The position numbers were made by a program, and so were the translations under genes. DNA of 32,949 bases, from the NCBI GenBank assembly GCA_017472305.1, contig JAFUQP010000003.1, forward strand, positions 1 to 32,949. The letters run 5' to 3'. The notes under the pieces are model-generated. The model was not told the DNA's origin. It ran no database searches and saw only the letters and a program-made list of their open reading frames with translations. Origin of the DNA: Clostridia bacterium. Its GTDB lineage: Bacteria > Bacillota > Clostridia > Oscillospirales > CAG-272. Positions 2,011 to 29,350 of this stretch are shown one piece after another. Positions within the stretch are counted from its first letter, which is position 1, and each line of letters begins with the position of its first letter.

Positions 2011-4779
2011 ATGAGCAAGTTTAAGAAATTAATCAGTCTTTTGTTGATGCTTATGCTCGCCCTTTCCGTGACCCTCTCCTTCGCTTCTTGTGGCGACGAT
2101 GATGACGGCGGTGACGGTGGCGACGGCGGAAGCAGCGATACCGGCAATGGCGGTAACACAGGCGATACCGGCAACGGCGGTAACACAGGCGACACCGGCA
2201 GCGGTGGCGGCACTCCCGGCGGCGACGAGGGCAATACTCCCGCTGAGCCTATCCCCACTCCCCCCGCAGCGCAGATTATCAAGACCTATACTGTAAAGGT
2301 GGTTGACCAGGCAGGCAATGCCGTTCCCGGCGTTACTGTTAAGCTTGTCGAGTACGACGATAAGGGCGTACAGAAGGGCGAGAAGCAGGGAACTACCGCG
2401 ACTGTAGATAACGCGGCTGTTGCAACCTTCTCGGTTGTTGAAAGCGCTTACCTCAAGGCACAGGTCGTTTCCGTTCCCACAGGCTACGTAATGGGTACCT
2501 ACGCAGACGGCAAGACCACCCTTAAGTATGACACGAAGGTTGACTTTGCTAACTACGAGGCAACTCTTACTGTCGTTAAGCCCACAGGCTACATAATCAC
2601 TGCGGCTGACGAAGACGGCAACGTTTTCAAGGGCGTTGAGATTACCTATGTTGTTACTCCTAATGACCCCGCTACTCCCGAAAACGAGGAAGTTAAGATT
2701 ACCGTTGTTACCGACTCTCTCGGTAAGGCAGTTCTTGACCTTCCCGCACTCGGTGTTGACGACGACCCCAATACCCCCGACGTTGACGAAACTGTAAAGA
2801 TTCCCGTATCCTTCAAGTACGAGAGCGAAACACACGTCGTTGAGTATGCTACAGGCGAGTTCGACGCTAAGCAGTATCAGACTGTTCTTATCGGTCCTGC
2901 TGTAGGTACCGTTCCCGAGAAGCCCGAGGCAATTGACGCTCTCGATAAGATTTCCCTCAAGGTTGGCGAGACCCGTTACTACACTCTTACCGCAGAGGCT
3001 GGACAGAGCATCATTATCAGAAATGATACCGTATCTGTTGCTTACGGTGATGAAAGCTTCTCGGTTGATGCAGGCGCAGGCGTTGCAATCGTTCCTCTTG
3101 ACGCGGGCGAGGCGGCGTTCTCTGTTACCAACGTAGGTACCTCTCCTATCACCGATGCCGTAACCGAGCTTGTAACAGTCAAGACCTTCGCAAAGCCCTC
3201 TGACAACACTCTCGAGGCAGCTATTGAAAAGGGTAAGTCTGCTTGGTACGAAATTGACTACAAGGCAGGTCAGTACGTAATTATTGATGTTGGCTGTGAC
3301 ACCGCAGAGGTAGTTTACCGCGAGCATCGCTATACTCCCAAGAACCAGAAGATAGAATTCCAGCTCAACGAAAACGGCGAGACCGCTGTATTCAAGGTAA
3401 TCGCTGGCGCCGGCGATGCTGATGCACTTGCAGCAAACGTATCCGTTAAGCTCATAACTCCTATAAACGACGAAACCGATATCGAGATTCCCGCAGGCGA
3501 GTCCATTTGGGTTTCCATAGCTTACACCGCAGGTCAGTATCTCCTTATAGATGATGCTACCGTAACTGCAGAAGGATACACATTCGGTGAAACTCTCGGT
3601 GCGGCTGCAGGCACAAAGTACATTAAGCTTACCGCGACAGGCGCGGCTGAAACTGCTATCAAGCCCGTAACTCCCCTTACCTTTAATGAGGGCACTGCCA
3701 CCGTAACCGTTAAGGGCGGCAAGACCGCTTGGTTTGAGGTTTCGGGCGCAGGAAAGTACGTCTTTATCGAAAACGCTGATGCAATTCTTGGCGGAATAGG
3801 CGAGGACGTAACCGCAATCAGCGGAATTATCGCGGCGGCTACCTCAGATAGCGAGACCGTATTCTCTCTCACCGTAGGTGACGAGAACTCCGACCTTGTA
3901 ATCAAGCTTGTTGAGGTTACCGAGACCGAAGAACTTCCCACCGCTCCCGCAGCTACGAAGGGTACCACCTGGTACAAGGTTCCTGCTGATGCAGGAAGCT
4001 ACATCTTCCTTCTTGACGAAACAGGTAAGGCGCAGATAACCTACAAGGGCTCGACCGTCAACACCGCGAACGGTGTTATCTCTGTACCCGTTACCGACGA
4101 GGACGGCTACGTAATCTTTGCGCTTGGCTTCACAGCAACCGTGGCCGATAAGACTGCTTCGGAATTCTCTATCGCAACCATTGAAACTCTTGCAAAGACC
4201 GAGGCTACCGTTCCGGTCGAGGCAAACGGCTCCGTTTGGTTCGTATATACCTCAAAGGCTGGCGAGATTATCCTCGTTGAAGGCGCTACCGCAGTTGAAA
4301 TCAATGGCGTTGATGCAAAATACGAGAATGGAAAGATTATCTTTGCAGCTGACGATGATACCGCGAAGACAAAGGGCACCGGCACAGCATACATCAAGGT
4401 TACCGTTGGCGATACCGCAGGCGACGTAACCCTCAAGCCTGTTACCGTTCTTAATACCGCGGAGCTTCTTGATACCACTAAGGGCGTAAGAGTTAACGTT
4501 CCCGCAGACGGCTCTGCGCGTTGGCTCCAGATTGACTACACCGCAGCAGGCACTCTCACTATCGACAGCACCAAGGTTATCGTTTACCTTGACGGTGCAA
4601 CCGAGCCCGTTGCAGTAGAGGACGATGCAAAGACCGTTACCGTTGAGCTTCCTGCTCTCGCTACAGGCGAAACCAAGGGTACTCTCCTTATCAAGGTAAC
4701 CTCCGAGGAGTCGGCAGAGTTCACCGCAACCTTCACTATCGTAGCTGCTCCCGCAGCTGACGAAACCCCTGCAACCTGA
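2011..4779 (+). CDS. Large repetitive surface lipoprotein (922 aa)
   Basis: A lipoprotein signal peptide with lipobox F-A-S-C (Cys27) is followed by an acidic stretch and a low-complexity Gly/Asn/Thr/Asp spacer with short repeats of the type NGGNTGDTG (to about residue 75). Two Ig/CnaB-like modules follow (about 91-190 and 192-300). About seven related modules of 75-95 residues then fill the rest, each marked by a G-x-(S/T)-x-W-(Y/F) strand and a following AG-x-(Y)-(V/I)-(I/L)-I strand. The aromatic marks lie near residues 320, 412, 500, 574, 654, 743 and 838. The spacing recalls pre-peptidase C-terminal-like beta-sandwiches. I see no catalytic motif and no LPxTG. Lysine is almost always AAG, suggesting high expression. 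GGAGG precedes the ATG. Probably an abundant surface or adhesion protein; the ligand cannot be inferred. Confidence 0.85.
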   Translation: MSKFKKLISLLLMLMLALSVTLSFASCGDDDDGGDGGDGGSSDTGNGGNTGDTGNGGNTGDTGSGGGTPGGDEGNTPAEPIPTPPAAQIIKTYTVKVVDQAGNAVPGVTVKLVEYDDKGVQKGEKQGTTATVDNAAVATFSVVESAYLKAQVVSVPTGYVMGTYADGKTTLKYDTKVDFANYEATLTVVKPTGYIITAADEDGNVFKGVEITYVVTPNDPATPENEEVKITVVTDSLGKAVLDLPALGVDDDPNTPDVDETVKIPVSFKYESETHVVEYATGEFDAKQYQTVLIGPAVGTVPEKPEAIDALDKISLKVGETRYYTLTAEAGQSIIIRNDTVSVAYGDESFSVDAGAGVAIVPLDAGEAAFSVTNVGTSPITDAVTELVTVKTFAKPSDNTLEAAIEKGKSAWYEIDYKAGQYVIIDVGCDTAEVVYREHRYTPKNQKIEFQLNENGETAVFKVIAGAGDADALAANVSVKLITPINDETDIEIPAGESIWVSIAYTAGQYLLIDDATVTAEGYTFGETLGAAAGTKYIKLTATGAAETAIKPVTPLTFNEGTATVTVKGGKTAWFEVSGAGKYVFIENADAILGGIGEDVTAISGIIAAATSDSETVFSLTVGDENSDLVIKLVEVTETEELPTAPAATKGTTWYKVPADAGSYIFLLDETGKAQITYKGSTVNTANGVISVPVTDEDGYVIFALGFTATVADKTASEFSIATIETLAKTEATVPVEANGSVWFVYTSKAGEIILVEGATAVEINGVDAKYENGKIIFAADDDTAKTKGTGTAYIKVTVGDTAGDVTLKPVTVLNTAELLDTTKGVRVNVPADGSARWLQIDYTAAGTLTIDSTKVIVYLDGATEPVAVEDDAKTVTVELPALATGETKGTLLIKVTSEESAEFTATFTIVAAPAADETPAT

Positions 4780-23093: not shown

Positions 23094-23174
23094 TACCAAA
23101 AAGTTCATTTTACAATGAAAAACTCTCTTTTTTTCCGCGCGTATAAAATGAAATTTATTTTTTTAAATAAATAC

Positions 23175-23203
23175 TGTACAAATCCTTTGCTTTATGGTAT
23201 AAT
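23175..23203 (+). promoter_or_regulatory. Promoter for the rlmB operon
   Basis: TATAAT (23198-23203) with a weak TGTACA (23175-23180) 17 bases upstream. The start near 23210 gives a leader of about 75 bases. The -10 box is perfect; the -35 matches four of six bases. Confidence 0.6.
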
Positions 23204-23285
23204 TAACTATATTATTCAGGCGAGACTCGCCAAATTCCGACACCGGAACGGGAGTCGGGACAATACGGAATTTTTGAAGGTAGCT

Positions 23286-24113
23286 ATGGAAAAGGGAAAT
23301 CGGGATTTCAAGAATAAAAGAAACGGTAAAGGTGAATACAGACGCGAGGAGTACAGGACGGCGCCCGTCGAGGTTGACGAGTGCATTGTCAGCGGCAGAA
23401 ATGCCGTCAAGGAGCTTCTCTCGAGCGGCAGAGCAGTCGAGAAGATGTTCGTGCAGACGGGCGACCGCGAGGGCTCGGTGAAAATGCTCGTTGCGATAGC
23501 CGTCGAACGGAAAATTCCGATTTTCGACGCGGATAAAACCAAGCTTGACAGAATGTCGGGCGGCGCAAGGCATCAGGGTGTCGTATGCATTGCCGCAGAG
23601 CGCGAGTATTACTCTGTTGAGGATATTCTTGATTATGCCAAGGAGCGCGGCGAAGCGCCGTTTATAGTAATTCTCGACGGAGTCGAGGACCCTCACAACC
23701 TCGGTGCGATTATCAGAAGTGCAGAGTGCTCGGGCGCACACGGAGTAATAATACCGAAGCGCCGCGCCGTAGGACTCACCACAACGGTTGCGAAGGCTTC
23801 TGCGGGGGCTATAGAGCATATGCGTGTTTGCAAGGTAACTAATCTTGCCCAAACGCTTGATGAGCTTAAGGAAAAGGGGCTTTGGCTCTATGCCGCCGAT
23901 ATGGGTGGAGAGAGCTACTACAGCCTCGATATGAAGGGGGCTGTCGGACTCGTCCTCGGAAGCGAGGGCTTCGGCATATCCCGACTCGTGAAGGAGAAGT
24001 GCGACTTCGTCGTATCAATTCCCCTTTACGGCAGTGTGAACTCAATGAACGTTTCCTGTGCCGCATCGGTAATTCTTGCCGATATCGCACGTCAAAGACA
24101 TACTCTCGACTAG
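23286..24113 (+). CDS. rlmB: 23S rRNA 2'-O-methyltransferase RlmB (TrmH family)
   Basis: SPOUT-class methyltransferase that, in the characterised enzyme, methylates G2251 of 23S rRNA. The 275-residue product has a basic N-terminal tail (1-30), an L30e-like RNA-binding domain (about 32-108, VSGRNAVKELL) and a SPOUT domain. SPOUT motif 1 is DPHNLGAIIRSAE (N138, R144), motif 2 is LGSEGFGIS (224-232) and motif 3 is IPLYGSVNSMNVSCAAS (246-261). GAAGG lies five bases before the ATG at 23286; the frame is open upstream but that stretch includes the promoter. The stop codon TAG is part of the ribosome binding site of the next gene, implying tight coupling. A neighbouring-site specificity cannot be excluded. 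Confidence 0.93.
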   Translation: MEKGNRDFKNKRNGKGEYRREEYRTAPVEVDECIVSGRNAVKELLSSGRAVEKMFVQTGDREGSVKMLVAIAVERKIPIFDADKTKLDRMSGGARHQGVVCIAAEREYYSVEDILDYAKERGEAPFIVILDGVEDPHNLGAIIRSAECSGAHGVIIPKRRAVGLTTTVAKASAGAIEHMRVCKVTNLAQTLDELKEKGLWLYAADMGGESYYSLDMKGAVGLVLGSEGFGISRLVKEKCDFVVSIPLYGSVNSMNVSCAASVILADIARQRHTLD

Positions 24114-24126
24114 GAGGTAAATAATC

Positions 24127-26730
24127 TTGGATAAGAAGCCATTTGGCGAGGAGATAGAGAAAATACTCGAAAATGCCGATAAAAATTATAATAACATAGA
24201 GCCCGACGACGCCCTTGAGCTTGGCGGTATGGCACCGCGCGGCGAGGCGGTCTTTGAATTCGTATCGGGCAGCGAGCCGACACCTGCGTCAAAGACGTCG
24301 GCAGACACAAAAGAAATTAAGTCAGAGCCGAAGACGTCGCCCACACTGGAGGTTCCCGACGTGTTCTGTGCTGTGGAGGAGCAGGAGTACAGCGCGCTTG
24401 CCGAGGCTACCGCGAAGATTAGAACGACCTACGTTCCGCGCTTCACCGAAGCGAGCGAAACCTACCGTATGAAGAACGACCCCCGTCCCCGTCGCACACC
24501 CGCGGCTGTCGAGGACAAGCCGTCTGCCGCCGTAGAGAGGCAGACACCAAAAAACGAGGCTACCGAGCCTTCGGTGGACCCCACCGAGGAAATGGACACA
24601 GAGGTAGCGGAGGCAGTTGTGGTTGACGTGCAGTCACCCACTCGCGAGGAGAGCGGCGACCGCCTCAACGTATATAAATTCGCAGAGAATCCCGAGAGGG
24701 AGGAGGCTCCGCGCGAGCGTACTCTCGAGGACGAAAGGGCTGAGATAGAAAGCATTATCTCCCGTGCTGAGCTCGAGCCCGATAAGGGAGAGCAACTTGC
24801 GCCTGCCGAACAAAAAGAGCCTGAGAGGGAAGAGCAGCGCGAGTTCTCAATTCCCGACCCCGAGCCCGACGCAGTTTACGTGTCAGACTCAGATATTCTT
24901 TCGGAGGCTCCCGAGGAGAGCGCGCCGGATTGCATATCTGCCTCTCCCGAAACGCGTCGCGCCGCCTATTCCGAGTTCACCCTTCCGATACAGCGTGACG
25001 CCTTCAAGGATAAGTTCCTTGATAGCATTATGGGCATAAAAATCAGACTCGTTGCGGCAATTGCATTTTCGGTGCTGCTTCTCGGCTTTGAGATTGCCTT
25101 TGCCTTCGGTATGTTCACAAGCGATATATTCGGTATGCCCGTTAAGCCCTTCGCTGCGGCGGTCGTGGATTATCTTATTGCGCTTTGCTCGGCGCTCGTA
25201 GTATTGCCCGAGGCAGTCCGTGCGGTTAAGCTGCTCTTTAAAGGAAGGGTGCTTCCCGAGCTTTCTGTTATAATTTCGTTTGTCTTACTCACCGTATATA
25301 CTGCAGTGATTTTTGCGGGCGGCGGACTCTTTGACTATCCGCTCTTCGGCTTTATGCTCTCAGTCGGTACGGTAGCTGCGGCTCTCGCCTCATATTTCAG
25401 GCGCGACGGCGATTTCCTTGCCTTCAAGCTCATATCAAAGAACGGCGAGAAGCGTATATTCGATAAGAAGCCCACGAGAAACCTCCCCGAGGAAAACCTT
25501 GCCCTCGACGGCGCCGTTGACGAGTACAAATCGGTTACGGCAAAGCTCTACAGAGCAAGCTTCATTACCGATTTCAACAAAAACGTTTCAAGAGTGTCGG
25601 AGGGCGGAAGAGCTGCGGCTCTGGTTATAGCAATCCCCCTCGGCGCGGCGCTCGTTACCGCCTTTATTTGCTATTTCCTTGTAGGAGGAATTTATTCAGC
25701 GGTAAGTGCGCTTACATTCGTTATGCTGCTCGGTATCCCGAGCTTTGCCGTGCTTTCGCATAAGCTTCCCTACAGGGACTCCCAGCTTGCCTCAAGGTGC
25801 GAGCTATCCGCCGCTGTTGGCGAGAGTGCGCTCGGTGAGTTTTCCGAGGTTGACGTTGTCGCCTTTGAGGACAGCGAGATATTCGGTGAGGACGACGTAA
25901 ACCTCAAGCGCTTTATGCTCTACTGTGACAGCGAGAATATGGAAAAGACTATGAGAAGAATGTGCTCGCTATTCTCGGTAGTCGGCGGACCGCTTCTGTC
26001 GATGTTCTCCCGCTCGCTCGACGGTGCGGCGACACATACACCTGCCCGCAACCCCGAGATTGAAGCAGACGGACTTTCCGGTGAGGTCGGCGGTACGAGA
26101 ATTTACGCAGGCAGCGAGGAATATATGAGCCGTCACGGCATACCTGTTCCCGACGTAGGAAAACGGAAGGAGAACGGCCTCGATACCATCAGAATAATGT
26201 ATGCCGCAGAGGGTAGCGAGATACTTGCAAAGTTTTACGTGAGGTATTCCTTCTCCGAGGAATTCACAATGCTCCTGCCGCAGCTTCGCGAGGAGGGAAT
26301 AATTCCTCTTATTTACACAAGAGACCCGAACGTTTCCCCCGAGCTTATAAAAACGCTTACCTCGGGTGCTGACAGTATAAGAATTGTCAAGAAGCTCACC
26401 CCCATAACCGAGGATAAGCTGTATAGCCGCGTTGGAGCGCAGCTCGTTACCTTCGGCGATAAAATCAATGCCATAAACGTAATACTCCTCTCAAAAAAGT
26501 ATAAAAAGCTTTCAGAGAGGCTTGCAACGAGCGAGCTGTACGCTATGGCGGCAGGCACGGTGCTTGCCTCTGTGCTCTCGGTGCTGGGTATGACGGGCGT
26601 TCCCGCCCTCGTGTTCGGCACATGGCAGATAGCCTGGTGTCTTGTGCTTCGATTTGTGAGCCGAAACACCTTCCTTAAGGATAAGAGCCGCTCAGAGCTT
26701 CGCTTTGATGAGGAGGAGCGCCTCGGTTGA
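24127..26730 (+). CDS. P1B-type ATPase-like membrane protein lacking catalytic residues
   Basis: The 867-residue product has an acidic hydrophilic N-terminus (1-295) and eight membrane spans in the P1B-ATPase order: four (308-328, 341-360, 379-398, 404-424), a cytosolic loop, two (498-520, 523-545), a large cytosolic part (546-800) and two more (806-826, 828-848). Landmarks are present but dead. Where DKTGT is expected after a VDVV strand there is FEDSEI (580-585), so the phosphorylated Asp is Glu581. TGD is TRD (731-733), GDGIND is GDKINA (777-782), the CPC site is IPS (P538), and no TGE is seen in the short actuator loop. The nucleotide-domain pattern persists near 655-690. The start is TTG, set by AGGAGG nine bases upstream. 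Transport is therefore unlikely; a regulatory, structural or sensing role is inference. The homology is my reading and unconfirmed. Confidence 0.72.
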   Translation: MDKKPFGEEIEKILENADKNYNNIEPDDALELGGMAPRGEAVFEFVSGSEPTPASKTSADTKEIKSEPKTSPTLEVPDVFCAVEEQEYSALAEATAKIRTTYVPRFTEASETYRMKNDPRPRRTPAAVEDKPSAAVERQTPKNEATEPSVDPTEEMDTEVAEAVVVDVQSPTREESGDRLNVYKFAENPEREEAPRERTLEDERAEIESIISRAELEPDKGEQLAPAEQKEPEREEQREFSIPDPEPDAVYVSDSDILSEAPEESAPDCISASPETRRAAYSEFTLPIQRDAFKDKFLDSIMGIKIRLVAAIAFSVLLLGFEIAFAFGMFTSDIFGMPVKPFAAAVVDYLIALCSALVVLPEAVRAVKLLFKGRVLPELSVIISFVLLTVYTAVIFAGGGLFDYPLFGFMLSVGTVAAALASYFRRDGDFLAFKLISKNGEKRIFDKKPTRNLPEENLALDGAVDEYKSVTAKLYRASFITDFNKNVSRVSEGGRAAALVIAIPLGAALVTAFICYFLVGGIYSAVSALTFVMLLGIPSFAVLSHKLPYRDSQLASRCELSAAVGESALGEFSEVDVVAFEDSEIFGEDDVNLKRFMLYCDSENMEKTMRRMCSLFSVVGGPLLSMFSRSLDGAATHTPARNPEIEADGLSGEVGGTRIYAGSEEYMSRHGIPVPDVGKRKENGLDTIRIMYAAEGSEILAKFYVRYSFSEEFTMLLPQLREEGIIPLIYTRDPNVSPELIKTLTSGADSIRIVKKLTPITEDKLYSRVGAQLVTFGDKINAINVILLSKKYKKLSERLATSELYAMAAGTVLASVLSVLGMTGVPALVFGTWQIAWCLVLRFVSRNTFLKDKSRSELRFDEEERLG

Positions 26731-26772
26731 CGTGGGCAGGGTCAAATTTTCGCTTGCCTATAGCCATACAAA

Positions 26773-26795
26773 GGGAGCGAGTTATGCTCGCTCCC
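26773..26795 (+). terminator. Intercistronic hairpin, possible attenuator
   Basis: GGGAGCGAG and CTCGCTCCC form nine perfect pairs around TTATG in the 89-base gap between the ATPase-like gene and the radical-SAM gene. TCGGTTTA follows, not a clean T-run, so partial termination or a processing or stability site is more likely than full termination. Confidence 0.5.
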
Positions 26796-26819
26796 TCGGT
26801 TTACTTGAAAGGACTTGAA

Positions 26820-28667
26820 ATGCTAGAAAAAAATATGTCCTCGGTGCTTAAATCGGTATCCAAGCCGGGCAGGTACGTCGGAGGAGAATATAACAGTGTA
26901 AAAAAGAATAAGGACGAGGTGAAGTGCCGCTTTGCCTTCTGCTTTCCCGATACCTATGAGATAGGAATGTCAAACCTCGGTGTGCGTATACTCTATGACG
27001 TGCTTAACCGAGAAAAGGATATATGGTGCGAGCGCGTTTACGCGCCCTGGACCGATATGAGAGAGAAAATGCAGGAGTATTCCATACCCCTCACGGCACA
27101 GGAGAGTGGCGATGCTATGAAGGCGTTCGATATGCTTGCCTTCTCGCTCCAGTATGAGATGTGCTATACCACTGCTCTCGGTATGCTCCGCCTCGCGGGA
27201 CTTAAGCTCTACGCCTCGGAGAGGGAAGAGTGTGACCCCGTGGTTATCGCGGGCGGCCCTTGCGTATACAACCCCGAGCCGTTTGCCGAGTTTTTCGACC
27301 TTATCAACGTCGGCGAGGGTGAGGAGGTTCTCGTCGAGATATGCAGGCTTTATATCGAAATGAAGGAGAACGGAAGCTATACGAAATCCGCCTTTCTCCG
27401 CCGCGCCTCGCAGATTGAGGGAGTGTATATCCCCTCGCTTTACGAGGTCGAATATAATGCCGACGGCACTATAAAGGAATATAAGCCGAAGTACCCCGAT
27501 ACTCCGAAGAAAATAAGGAAGAGAATAATTGAGGATATGGACAAGGCGCCCTATCCCGAGAAGCTCGTTATGCCCTACATAGAAACCGTTCACGACAGAA
27601 TAGTCCTCGAGGTCTATCGCGGCTGTATTCGCGGCTGTCGCTTCTGTCAGGCGGGTATGGTTTACCGCCCGATAAGGGAGAAGTCACCCGAGGTTCTCTG
27701 TAAGCAGGCGCGTTGCCTCTTTGACAACACGGGTTACGACGAGATTTCCTTGATTTCGCTTTCAATCAGCGACTACTCCGAGCTGCCAAGACTCACCGAT
27801 TCGCTTCTTGAATGGACAGACGAAAAGAGAGTCAGCCTGTCCTTGCCCTCGCTCCGTATAGACTCCTTCTCTGAGGAGCTTATGCAGAAGGTATCCTCGG
27901 TCAGAACAGGCGGAATTACCTTTGCCCCCGAGGCAGGCACGCAGAGGCTTCGTGACGTAATAAACAAGAACGTTACCGAGGAGGACCTTCTTCGCTCGGT
28001 GAATATTGCCTATCGCGGCGGCAAGAGCAATATAAAGCTCTATTTTATGAACGGACTGCCGACCGAAACTCTAGAGGATATCGAGGGAATTGCCGAGCTT
28101 GCAAAGCGAGTTGTCGGTCAGTACTTCCGTATGCCGAAGGAGGAGCGCCCGAAGGGCGTCGGTGTTACCGTGAGCGTTTCCTGCTTCGTCCCGAAGCCCC
28201 ACACCCCCTTCCAGTGGGAGGCGCAGGACAGCTACGAGATGCTTATGAATAAGCAGGAGCACTTAAAGAACGCGATAACCGACCGCCGTATAAGATACAC
28301 CTATCACGATGCAAAGGTATCTGTAATCGAGGCGCTTCTTGCAAGAGGCGACCGCCGCCTCGCACCCGTGCTTGAGCTTCTTACAAACGAGGGCGTAACC
28401 CTTGAGGCGTGGGATGAGAATTTCGACTACGACAAATGGGTATCGGCGCTCGATAGGGCTGGCGTTGATATGAGCTTCTATACAACGCGCGGCTTCGGGC
28501 TTGACGAGGTTCTTCCGTGGGATATAATCGACATCGGCGTAACCAAGGCATACCTTCGCCGTGAGCGCGATAAGGCATACGAGGGCAAGACTACGCCGTC
28601 CTGCGCCGAGCAGTGCTCTGGCTGCGGTGCAAATAAGCTTGGAGGTAAGAACAAATGGTGCAGGTAA
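26820..28667 (+). CDS. TIGR03960-type B12-binding/radical SAM protein
   Basis: The 615-residue product belongs to the TIGR03960 family. An N-terminal cobalamin-binding-like Rossmann region (about 25-190) includes FPDTYEIGMSNLG and VIAGGPCVYNPEP. The radical-SAM core follows, with cluster motif CIRGCRFC (C269, C273, C276), then a TFAPEAGTQRLRDVINKN block, and the C-terminus ends in a cysteine-rich CAEQCSGCG motif. The reaction is unknown; the family is almost always paired with a DUF2344 protein, as here, and often lies near ribosomal or RNase genes. ATG at 26820 is chosen because AAAGGA precedes it; the frame extends 93 bases upstream through the hairpin, which is not credible as protein. It overlaps the next gene by 13 bases. 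Confidence 0.93.
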   Translation: MLEKNMSSVLKSVSKPGRYVGGEYNSVKKNKDEVKCRFAFCFPDTYEIGMSNLGVRILYDVLNREKDIWCERVYAPWTDMREKMQEYSIPLTAQESGDAMKAFDMLAFSLQYEMCYTTALGMLRLAGLKLYASEREECDPVVIAGGPCVYNPEPFAEFFDLINVGEGEEVLVEICRLYIEMKENGSYTKSAFLRRASQIEGVYIPSLYEVEYNADGTIKEYKPKYPDTPKKIRKRIIEDMDKAPYPEKLVMPYIETVHDRIVLEVYRGCIRGCRFCQAGMVYRPIREKSPEVLCKQARCLFDNTGYDEISLISLSISDYSELPRLTDSLLEWTDEKRVSLSLPSLRIDSFSEELMQKVSSVRTGGITFAPEAGTQRLRDVINKNVTEEDLLRSVNIAYRGGKSNIKLYFMNGLPTETLEDIEGIAELAKRVVGQYFRMPKEERPKGVGVTVSVSCFVPKPHTPFQWEAQDSYEMLMNKQEHLKNAITDRRIRYTYHDAKVSVIEALLARGDRRLAPVLELLTNEGVTLEAWDENFDYDKWVSALDRAGVDMSFYTTRGFGLDEVLPWDIIDIGVTKAYLRRERDKAYEGKTTPSCAEQCSGCGANKLGGKNKWCR

Positions 28668-29350
28668 CTCCCGAAAAGCTCTTTATTCGTATAAAATTCC
28701 GCAAAACCGGACGTCTACAGTATATTTCCCACCTTGACCTTGTGAGAACTATGAATAAAATAGTCGTAAGGTCGGGACTGCCGCTTTGGTATACCGAGGG
28801 CTTTAATCCAAAGCCGAAGATGGTCTTTGCCGCCCCTCTGTCAATAGGCACCGAGAGCCATTTCGAGTTTATGGATTTGAGACTCACCGAGAGAGTTGAT
28901 ACCGACCTCGCTCTCGAAAGGCTTAACGCAAATATGACAGACGAGCTCGTCTGCACAGAGGCGTACTATCCCGAGAGCCCCTTTACCGCCCTTCGCTGGC
29001 TCAAGTATGAAATGGAGCTTGTGACAAGCGGCGCGTCCGAGGAGCTGGCAGGGAAATGTAACGAAGCGCTCGCCTCTGAAAAAATGGAAATACTCAAGAA
29101 AACCAAGAGCGGCGAGACTGTAGTTGACATAAAGCCTCTTGTTCACTCGGCGACTGCTCGCTTTGAGGACGGAAAAATCAAGATTTCGGCTATTCTCTCC
29201 GCCGACCCCTCGTCCTTCCTTAACCCCGAGTATGTTGTAAAGCTTCTCCGTGAGAGATGCAACGTTCTCTCATCATCTGACCTTACCTCGGAGCATTATT
29301 CGATACTCCGTACCGAGGGATATTTTTTCGATATGACCTTGTTCCGATAA
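28655..29350 (+). CDS. DUF2344 / TIGR03936 radical-SAM-linked protein
   Basis: The 231-residue cytosolic product matches the TIGR03936 family, a partner or detached domain of TIGR03960. Signature stretches are KFRKTGRLQYISHLDLVRTM (14-33) and GLPLWYTEGFNPKPKMVFA (41-59), followed by an alpha/beta region and an LRERCNVL helix near the end. It overlaps the radical-SAM gene by 13 bases and GGAGG within that gene precedes its ATG, so the two are translationally coupled. Members may handle a tRNA or an rRNA-related substrate, but no reaction is established. It ends the rlmB operon, before a structured 3' region and a terminator. Confidence 0.92.
   Translation: MVQVTPEKLFIRIKFRKTGRLQYISHLDLVRTMNKIVVRSGLPLWYTEGFNPKPKMVFAAPLSIGTESHFEFMDLRLTERVDTDLALERLNANMTDELVCTEAYYPESPFTALRWLKYEMELVTSGASEELAGKCNEALASEKMEILKKTKSGETVVDIKPLVHSATARFEDGKIKISAILSADPSSFLNPEYVVKLLRERCNVLSSSDLTSEHYSILRTEGYFFDMTLFR

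Follow-up and report, generated by a model that had tools for sequence, protein, structure and literature searches.

Pseudokinases and pseudoproteases are well known. Among P-type ATPases, a degenerate P4-class module from which most signature residues are gone is reported from the protist guanylate cyclase PfGC-beta, a functional protein (PMC6592433), and the P-type ATPase module of the related PfGC-alpha is described as probably active (PMC7858053). Searches of the open PMC literature aimed at a bacterial pseudo-P-type ATPase family found none among the papers listed, nor was a description of one found in the available part of a review (PMC10654040). Here we analyse an 867-residue protein encoded in a 32,949-nucleotide stretch of a Clostridia bacterium of the order Oscillospirales (assembly GCA_017472305.1, contig JAFUQP010000003.1, positions 1 to 32,949, hereafter the window), which an initial annotation made from the sequence alone had taken for a P1B-ATPase devoid of its catalytic residues. 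This pseudo-pump lies directly downstream of rlmB, and the PfGC-beta module differs from it in being eukaryotic, of the P4 class and fused to a cyclase.

The P1B-1 copper pumps (CopA; LpCopA, 3rfu/4bbj) are its best match by profile, profile-profile comparison and fold. CopA and the pseudo-pump have in common eight membrane helices in 4+2+2 order, the P and N domains, the proline of M4, the Thr and Asp of TGD and two N-domain glycines. Unlike CopA, however, the pseudo-pump has no DKTGT, actuator TGE, GDGxND, CPC or N-domain HP (apart from one stray S.HP in 80 members), its actuator loop is short and an acidic tail replaces the metal-binding domains. The P1B-2 zinc/cadmium ATPases (ZntA, CadA) have the same fold and show the same differences, but match more weakly than CopA. 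KdpB is also a weaker match by fold, and no KdpB chain is present among the 29 PDB sequences matched at E values up to 1.

Homology to P1B pumps and loss of their motifs

Searched alone, the window protein had no match among PDB sequences, and its best hits were DUF3219 in Pfam (E 0.062) and models with E values of 0.024 in NCBIfam and 0.042 in PHROGs. These misses are due to divergence, since profiles succeed. Of 59 near genomes, counting its own, 54 contain relatives, and a 49-member profile matches LpCopA (3rfu) among PDB sequences with an E value of 3.7e-18, a cadmium ATPase (7qbz) with 1.6e-9 and the plant HMA4 with 1.9e-8. The same search also turned up a zinc transporter (7y5g, E 5.3e-4) and, at 0.04, a receptor fusion; both are aligned at membrane positions only and were taken as hydrophobic chance matches. 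By profile-profile alignment (hhalign), the family matches the CopA-type pump of its own genome over 511 columns (E 2.5e-13) and the second P1B pump of that genome (E 6.3e-10), while L064, the one compared of the two P2-type pumps of that genome (L063 and L064), gives no match (probability 0.5, E 0.11). Taken singly, 38 of 80 members match the heavy metal P-type ATPase model TIGR01525 (E 1e-3 or less, best 1.9e-12) and 29 match the CopA model (E 1e-3 or better, best 7e-17). Matches to the heavy-metal ATPase model in genomes of this order therefore need not be pumps. The window protein is not among these members and matches no NCBIfam model in that search, and Pfam is nearly blank on the 80 members, PF00702 and PF00122 being found in two members each at E 0.1.

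The initial annotation had proposed structure prediction and a profile search as checks, and both point to P-type ATPases. None of the three outcomes that it had named as refuting its reading (a fold without a HAD-like P domain, no significant profile match to P-type ATPases, homologues aligning with an unrelated family) was observed. The predicted fold matches P1B-ATPases over the membrane, P and N domains, the N-domain structures superpose at 2.2-2.9 Å rmsd, and no known fold outside P-type ATPases is present among the 50 structure matches listed. The eight helices in 4+2+2 order described at first agree with the secondary structure predicted by AlphaFold2 (AF2). Profile positions 28-200 (the MA-M2 region) match P1B pumps, and in five true P1B pumps the match to the profile covers either side of the actuator loop (up to 181-200 and from 237-241) but not the stretch between. 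The loop (residues 433-493) is short throughout the family, as it had been described in the window protein, with 45-75 residues and a median of 58 in 78 of 80 members, a count that omits two members beginning too late.

The motifs were read from an alignment of 80 members, 60 of them rows from the 142 order genomes that harbor the family and 20 of them genus relatives, to which nine true P1B pumps from this order, each carrying DKTGT, were profile-aligned as controls. The phosphorylation motif DKTGT is present in none of the 80. In all nine controls the phosphorylated Asp aligns with Glu581 of the sequence FEDSEIF, in which Asp582 falls on the Lys, Glu584 on the Gly and Phe586 on the Leu. The CPC of the nine controls likewise aligns with an l-P-l pattern (IPS in the window protein), and TGD aligns with TRD in the five controls where this stretch was aligned. 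Three substitutions read in the initial annotation (FEDSEI for DKTGT with Asp changed to Glu581, IPS for CPC and TRD for TGD) are thus borne out, whereas its fourth, GDKINA for GDGIND, has to be abandoned: the GDGIND of the CopA from the same genome falls on LTPITE (residues 757-762) in the profile-profile alignment, and GDKINA lies further on. GDGxND, TGD at 731-733 and any of CPC, CPH or SPC at 537-539 are each absent from all 80 members, Cys being found at 537 in five and at 539 in none. TGE was not found in the actuator loop, and TGE[SA] occurs in two members, far C-terminal of the loop in both. The HP of the nine controls falls on gP, and the S.HP pattern is present in a single member.

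The homologues thus align with P1B-ATPases and share the losses, but the catalytic position is not fixed as Glu, as the substitution in the window protein might have implied. It harbors E in 18 members, D in 15, S in 11, R in 9, A and T in 7 each, N in 4, K in 3, Y in 2 and four other residues once each, and varies even inside the genus. What is kept instead is its surroundings: Asp582 in 71 of 80, Asp/Glu584 in 74 and Asp733, the Asp of TGD, in 79, the three together in 68. Thr/Ser731 is kept in 67 members, in all of them with the Asp of the motif, and residues 582, 584, 731 and 733 occur together in 60. The N-domain Gly649 and Gly662 are retained in 78 and 80 members and Pro538 of M4 in 69, and Lys/Arg occupies position 755 in 42. 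Because the acidic residues persist while position 581 changes even among close relatives, selection seems, from the alignment, to hold an acidic pocket where the catalytic motif is gone, and the site seems not merely eroded.

Order-wide retention and linkage to rlmB

We sampled 147 order genomes that are at least 85% complete, the source genome among them. A family match of 114 bits or more is present in 142 of these; the highest-scoring true P1B pump among the matches listed in this search reaches 81 bits. Three of the other five genomes have weak matches only (best 6.2e-16) and two have none at 1e-12. In nearly all of the 142 genomes the frame is open within the match, three matches are partial (G046, G110, G113), and no genome has two matches of at least 114 bits, split pieces aside. 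In one relative, from genome G056, an in-frame TGA splits the gene into two frames, which could be an error, a break or recoding. In a class sample, the 12 order genomes all match with E values of 2.3e-55 or lower, and the strongest match among 231 others is 2.6e-24, in the P-N region alone; in a phylum sample that partly overlaps it, the corresponding values are 5.2e-97 or lower for seven order genomes and 3.0e-38 for the strongest of 391 others, again in P-N only. The absence of the family outside the order is deduced from this gap in score. In the tree, the 80 members are set apart from the nine P1B pumps by a fully supported branch of length 1.5 and cluster mostly according to taxonomic family, the pattern that vertical descent would give. 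Within the genus, identity between members goes down to about 20%. The root is unsure, the P1B outgroup joining L104, L116 and L128 in a possible long-branch effect.

An rlmB match over the cut-off is found in 141 of the 147 genomes. Of the 140 with both genes, seven have them on different contigs and 133 on one contig, where rlmB is upstream on the same strand without exception. The gap between the two matches, a distance that includes the tail, is 120-2685 bp (median 686) in these 133 genomes, and in the 20 loci fetched and checked for intervening genes the two frames are at most about 210 bp apart. At 32 of 33 named loci the next gene upstream is rlmB, and the remaining locus begins inside the pseudo-pump gene. 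Where both genes are present (33 loci, counting the window), the rlmB stop lies at most 60 nt from the start of the longest pseudo-pump frame in 31, the exceptions being L065 (130 nt) and L069 (1093 nt). In G095, an rlmB fragment stands at the contig start just ahead of the pseudo-pump gene. Of the five genomes that lack a family member, four (G094, G119, G133, G158) also have no rlmB match over the cut-off. Two of these belong to one genus, but missing assembly could explain the co-loss; in the fifth, G061, rlmB lies 0.4 kb from the contig end. Retention in 142 genomes together with this strict synteny strongly supports the initial view of a maintained pseudo-enzyme and not a pseudogene: a whole order of Clostridia keeps a P-type ATPase pseudo-enzyme beside rlmB.

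Possible roles of the pseudo-pump

This retention in the same place suggests that the pump took on a different role, most likely that of a membrane scaffold or regulator, and we consider it probable that the protein is a P1B-ATPase stripped of its pumping machinery and kept as a non-catalytic membrane protein of this kind. A CopA-like gene would have become established downstream of rlmB in the order's ancestor, and its product would neither hydrolyse ATP nor pump. The eight-helix body would anchor the P and N domains at the membrane. Docking or ligand-sensing surfaces could be provided by the tail, which is mostly acidic, and by the acidic site rebuilt in the P domain (Asp582, Asp/Glu584, Asp733), with which the protein would scaffold or regulate a partner in the cytosol or the membrane. 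Several points weigh against this proposal. The role is deduced from missing parts, and the linkage to rlmB may reflect co-expression only. Residues were examined one by one in 60 of the 142 genomes and the rest assigned by profile score. Asp stands at the phosphorylation position in 15 of 80 members, never followed by Lys, and some residual chemistry in these is conceivable; they comprise seven rows in family f1 and eight in f8, f15, f17, f19, f23 and f25, scattered over the tree, with Asp581 in five of six rows of one supported clade (f9, f15, f23, f25), so an early branch that kept it is also conceivable. Finally, the frames of family f10 have 541-564 residues, with little or no tail where read (L146), and the acidic tail is for this reason probably not the core of the function. 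More tentatively, we would picture an order-wide and probably housekeeping pseudo-pump whose dead site was rebuilt as an acidic sensor of a ligand or partner, acting as a membrane regulator co-expressed with an rRNA methyltransferase.

The same acidic residues could instead mark a rebuilt HAD-like centre (Asp582, Asp/Glu584, Thr731, Asp733), making the protein a phosphatase, a phosphotransferase or a nucleotide-switched protein. HAD motif I is DxD, which the D-x-[DE] of the family resembles, the T/S is present, all four positions are conserved as given above and the two N-domain glycines are retained. The centre is nevertheless one residue off register, Asp582 aligning in all nine controls with the Lys of DKTGT and not with the nucleophile, and both the lack of the Mg-binding GDGxND in all 80 members and the occurrence of Lys/Arg755 in just over half of the members make this alternative unlikely. 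Asp582 as a shifted nucleophile was set aside, the nine controls aligning there without a gap. A channel or carrier working without ATP, in which the P1B membrane path is preserved and ATP coupling lost, would fit the retention of all eight helices and of the M4 proline, and Glu322 (38/80), Asp348 (36/80) and Cys789 (33/80) lie in predicted helices. However, no Cys, His, Met, Asp or Glu within a predicted helix reaches 50% conservation in the 80 members, and most of the best conserved positions (eight of the top ten) fall outside the helices, where a bare channel would not need them. Given that the metal ligands are missing, CPC and its variants included, a transporter role is quite unlikely. 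We regard a role in sporulation as highly improbable. SpoIVA is found in 134 of the 147 genomes (E 1e-20) and gpr lies upstream in the window, yet the gene is still present in 12 of the 13 that have no SpoIVA match, four of these 12 being from one genus. The high divergence, the variable catalytic position and the relative with an in-frame TGA might also indicate a decaying relic under weak selection, but this is hardly credible for a gene with nearly always open frames, order-wide presence, strict synteny and preserved acidic residues at 582, 584 and 733. Being near-universal and without assigned function, the gene is well suited as a knock-out target, and its family is a natural experiment on what the body of a P-type ATPase is capable of once its cycle is gone.

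The gene, its tail and its neighbours

The coordinates of the gene and its surroundings are given in Table 1. The frame is intact, its strong ribosome binding site is coupled to rlmB and its N-terminus of 295 residues is acidic, all as first described.

Table 1. Features of the pseudo-pump locus in the window
Feature	Position	Strand	Basis or remark
rlmB, 23S rRNA Gm2251 methyltransferase, directly upstream	23115..24113	+	TIGR00186, E 2.2e-69, 233.6 bits; longest frame, matched domain residues 91-328, true start may be later
Shine-Dalgarno AGGAGG	24112..24117	+	sequence; overlaps rlmB stop codon (24111-24113), 9 nt before TTG start
Pseudo-P1B-ATPase gene	24127..26730	+	open from TTG to stop, 867 aa
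Acidic N-terminal tail (residues 1-295)	24127..25011	+	73 D/E against 36 K/R
TTYVPRFTEASETYRM (residues 100-115)	24424..24471	+	short motif kept among close genus members (alignment A1)
Helices MA, MB, M1, M2 (residues 300-436)	25024..25434	+	AF2 secondary structure
Actuator domain remnant (residues 442-492)	25450..25602	+	short loop without TGE; P1B pumps unmatched there
M3-M4 (residues 494-545)	25606..25761	+	Pro538 at the Pro of CPC; flanking Cys gone
FEDSEIF (residues 580-586)	25864..25884	+	replaces [hydrophobic]DKTGTL; profile alignment to P1B pumps
N domain (about residues 591-706)	25897..26244	+	VGGPL replaces SEHPL; Gly649, Gly662 retained
TRDPN (residues 731-735)	26317..26331	+	replaces TGDN; Asp733 kept, TGD itself never
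GDKINA (residues 777-782)	26455..26472	+	neither conserved nor a GDGIND remnant
M5-M6 (residues 785-850)	26479..26676	+	AF2
B12-binding radical SAM protein	26727..28667	+	TIGR03960, E 1.9e-278; overlaps pseudo-pump stop
Radical SAM-associated protein, partner of the TIGR03960 protein	28655..29350	+	TIGR03936, E 1.3e-49

The folded model starts at residue 281, and nearly all of the tail lies outside it. The net charge of the tail is negative in 50 of 51 members examined, a count that leaves out L141, L142 and the almost tailless L146. In close genus members the tail drifts except for short conserved motifs (TTYVPRFTEASETYRM, DPT[AE]E, NVYKF and IPDP). A motif resembling S-[ILVA]-[DEA]-[DE]-[IL]-L, which may be a docking peptide, is present near the N-terminus in members of several families (L130, L134, L136, L137, L140, L148 and L083).

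Of the 33 named loci, 16 have the TIGR03960 radical SAM gene downstream, truncated at the end of the contig in one case, and the other 17 have no match to it within the fetched stretch. In ten genus relatives (G030, G012, G017, G022, G013, G028, G007, G035, G006 and G011) the contig ends about 3.7-4.0 kb downstream of the pseudo-pump gene. The break thus falls at almost one and the same distance in assemblies from many species, which suggests a shared repeat or rRNA operon at that point. Elsewhere in the window, positions 1014-1724 and 2011-4779 hold adjacent frames with lipoprotein-like signal peptides at their starts and repeated-looking domains.
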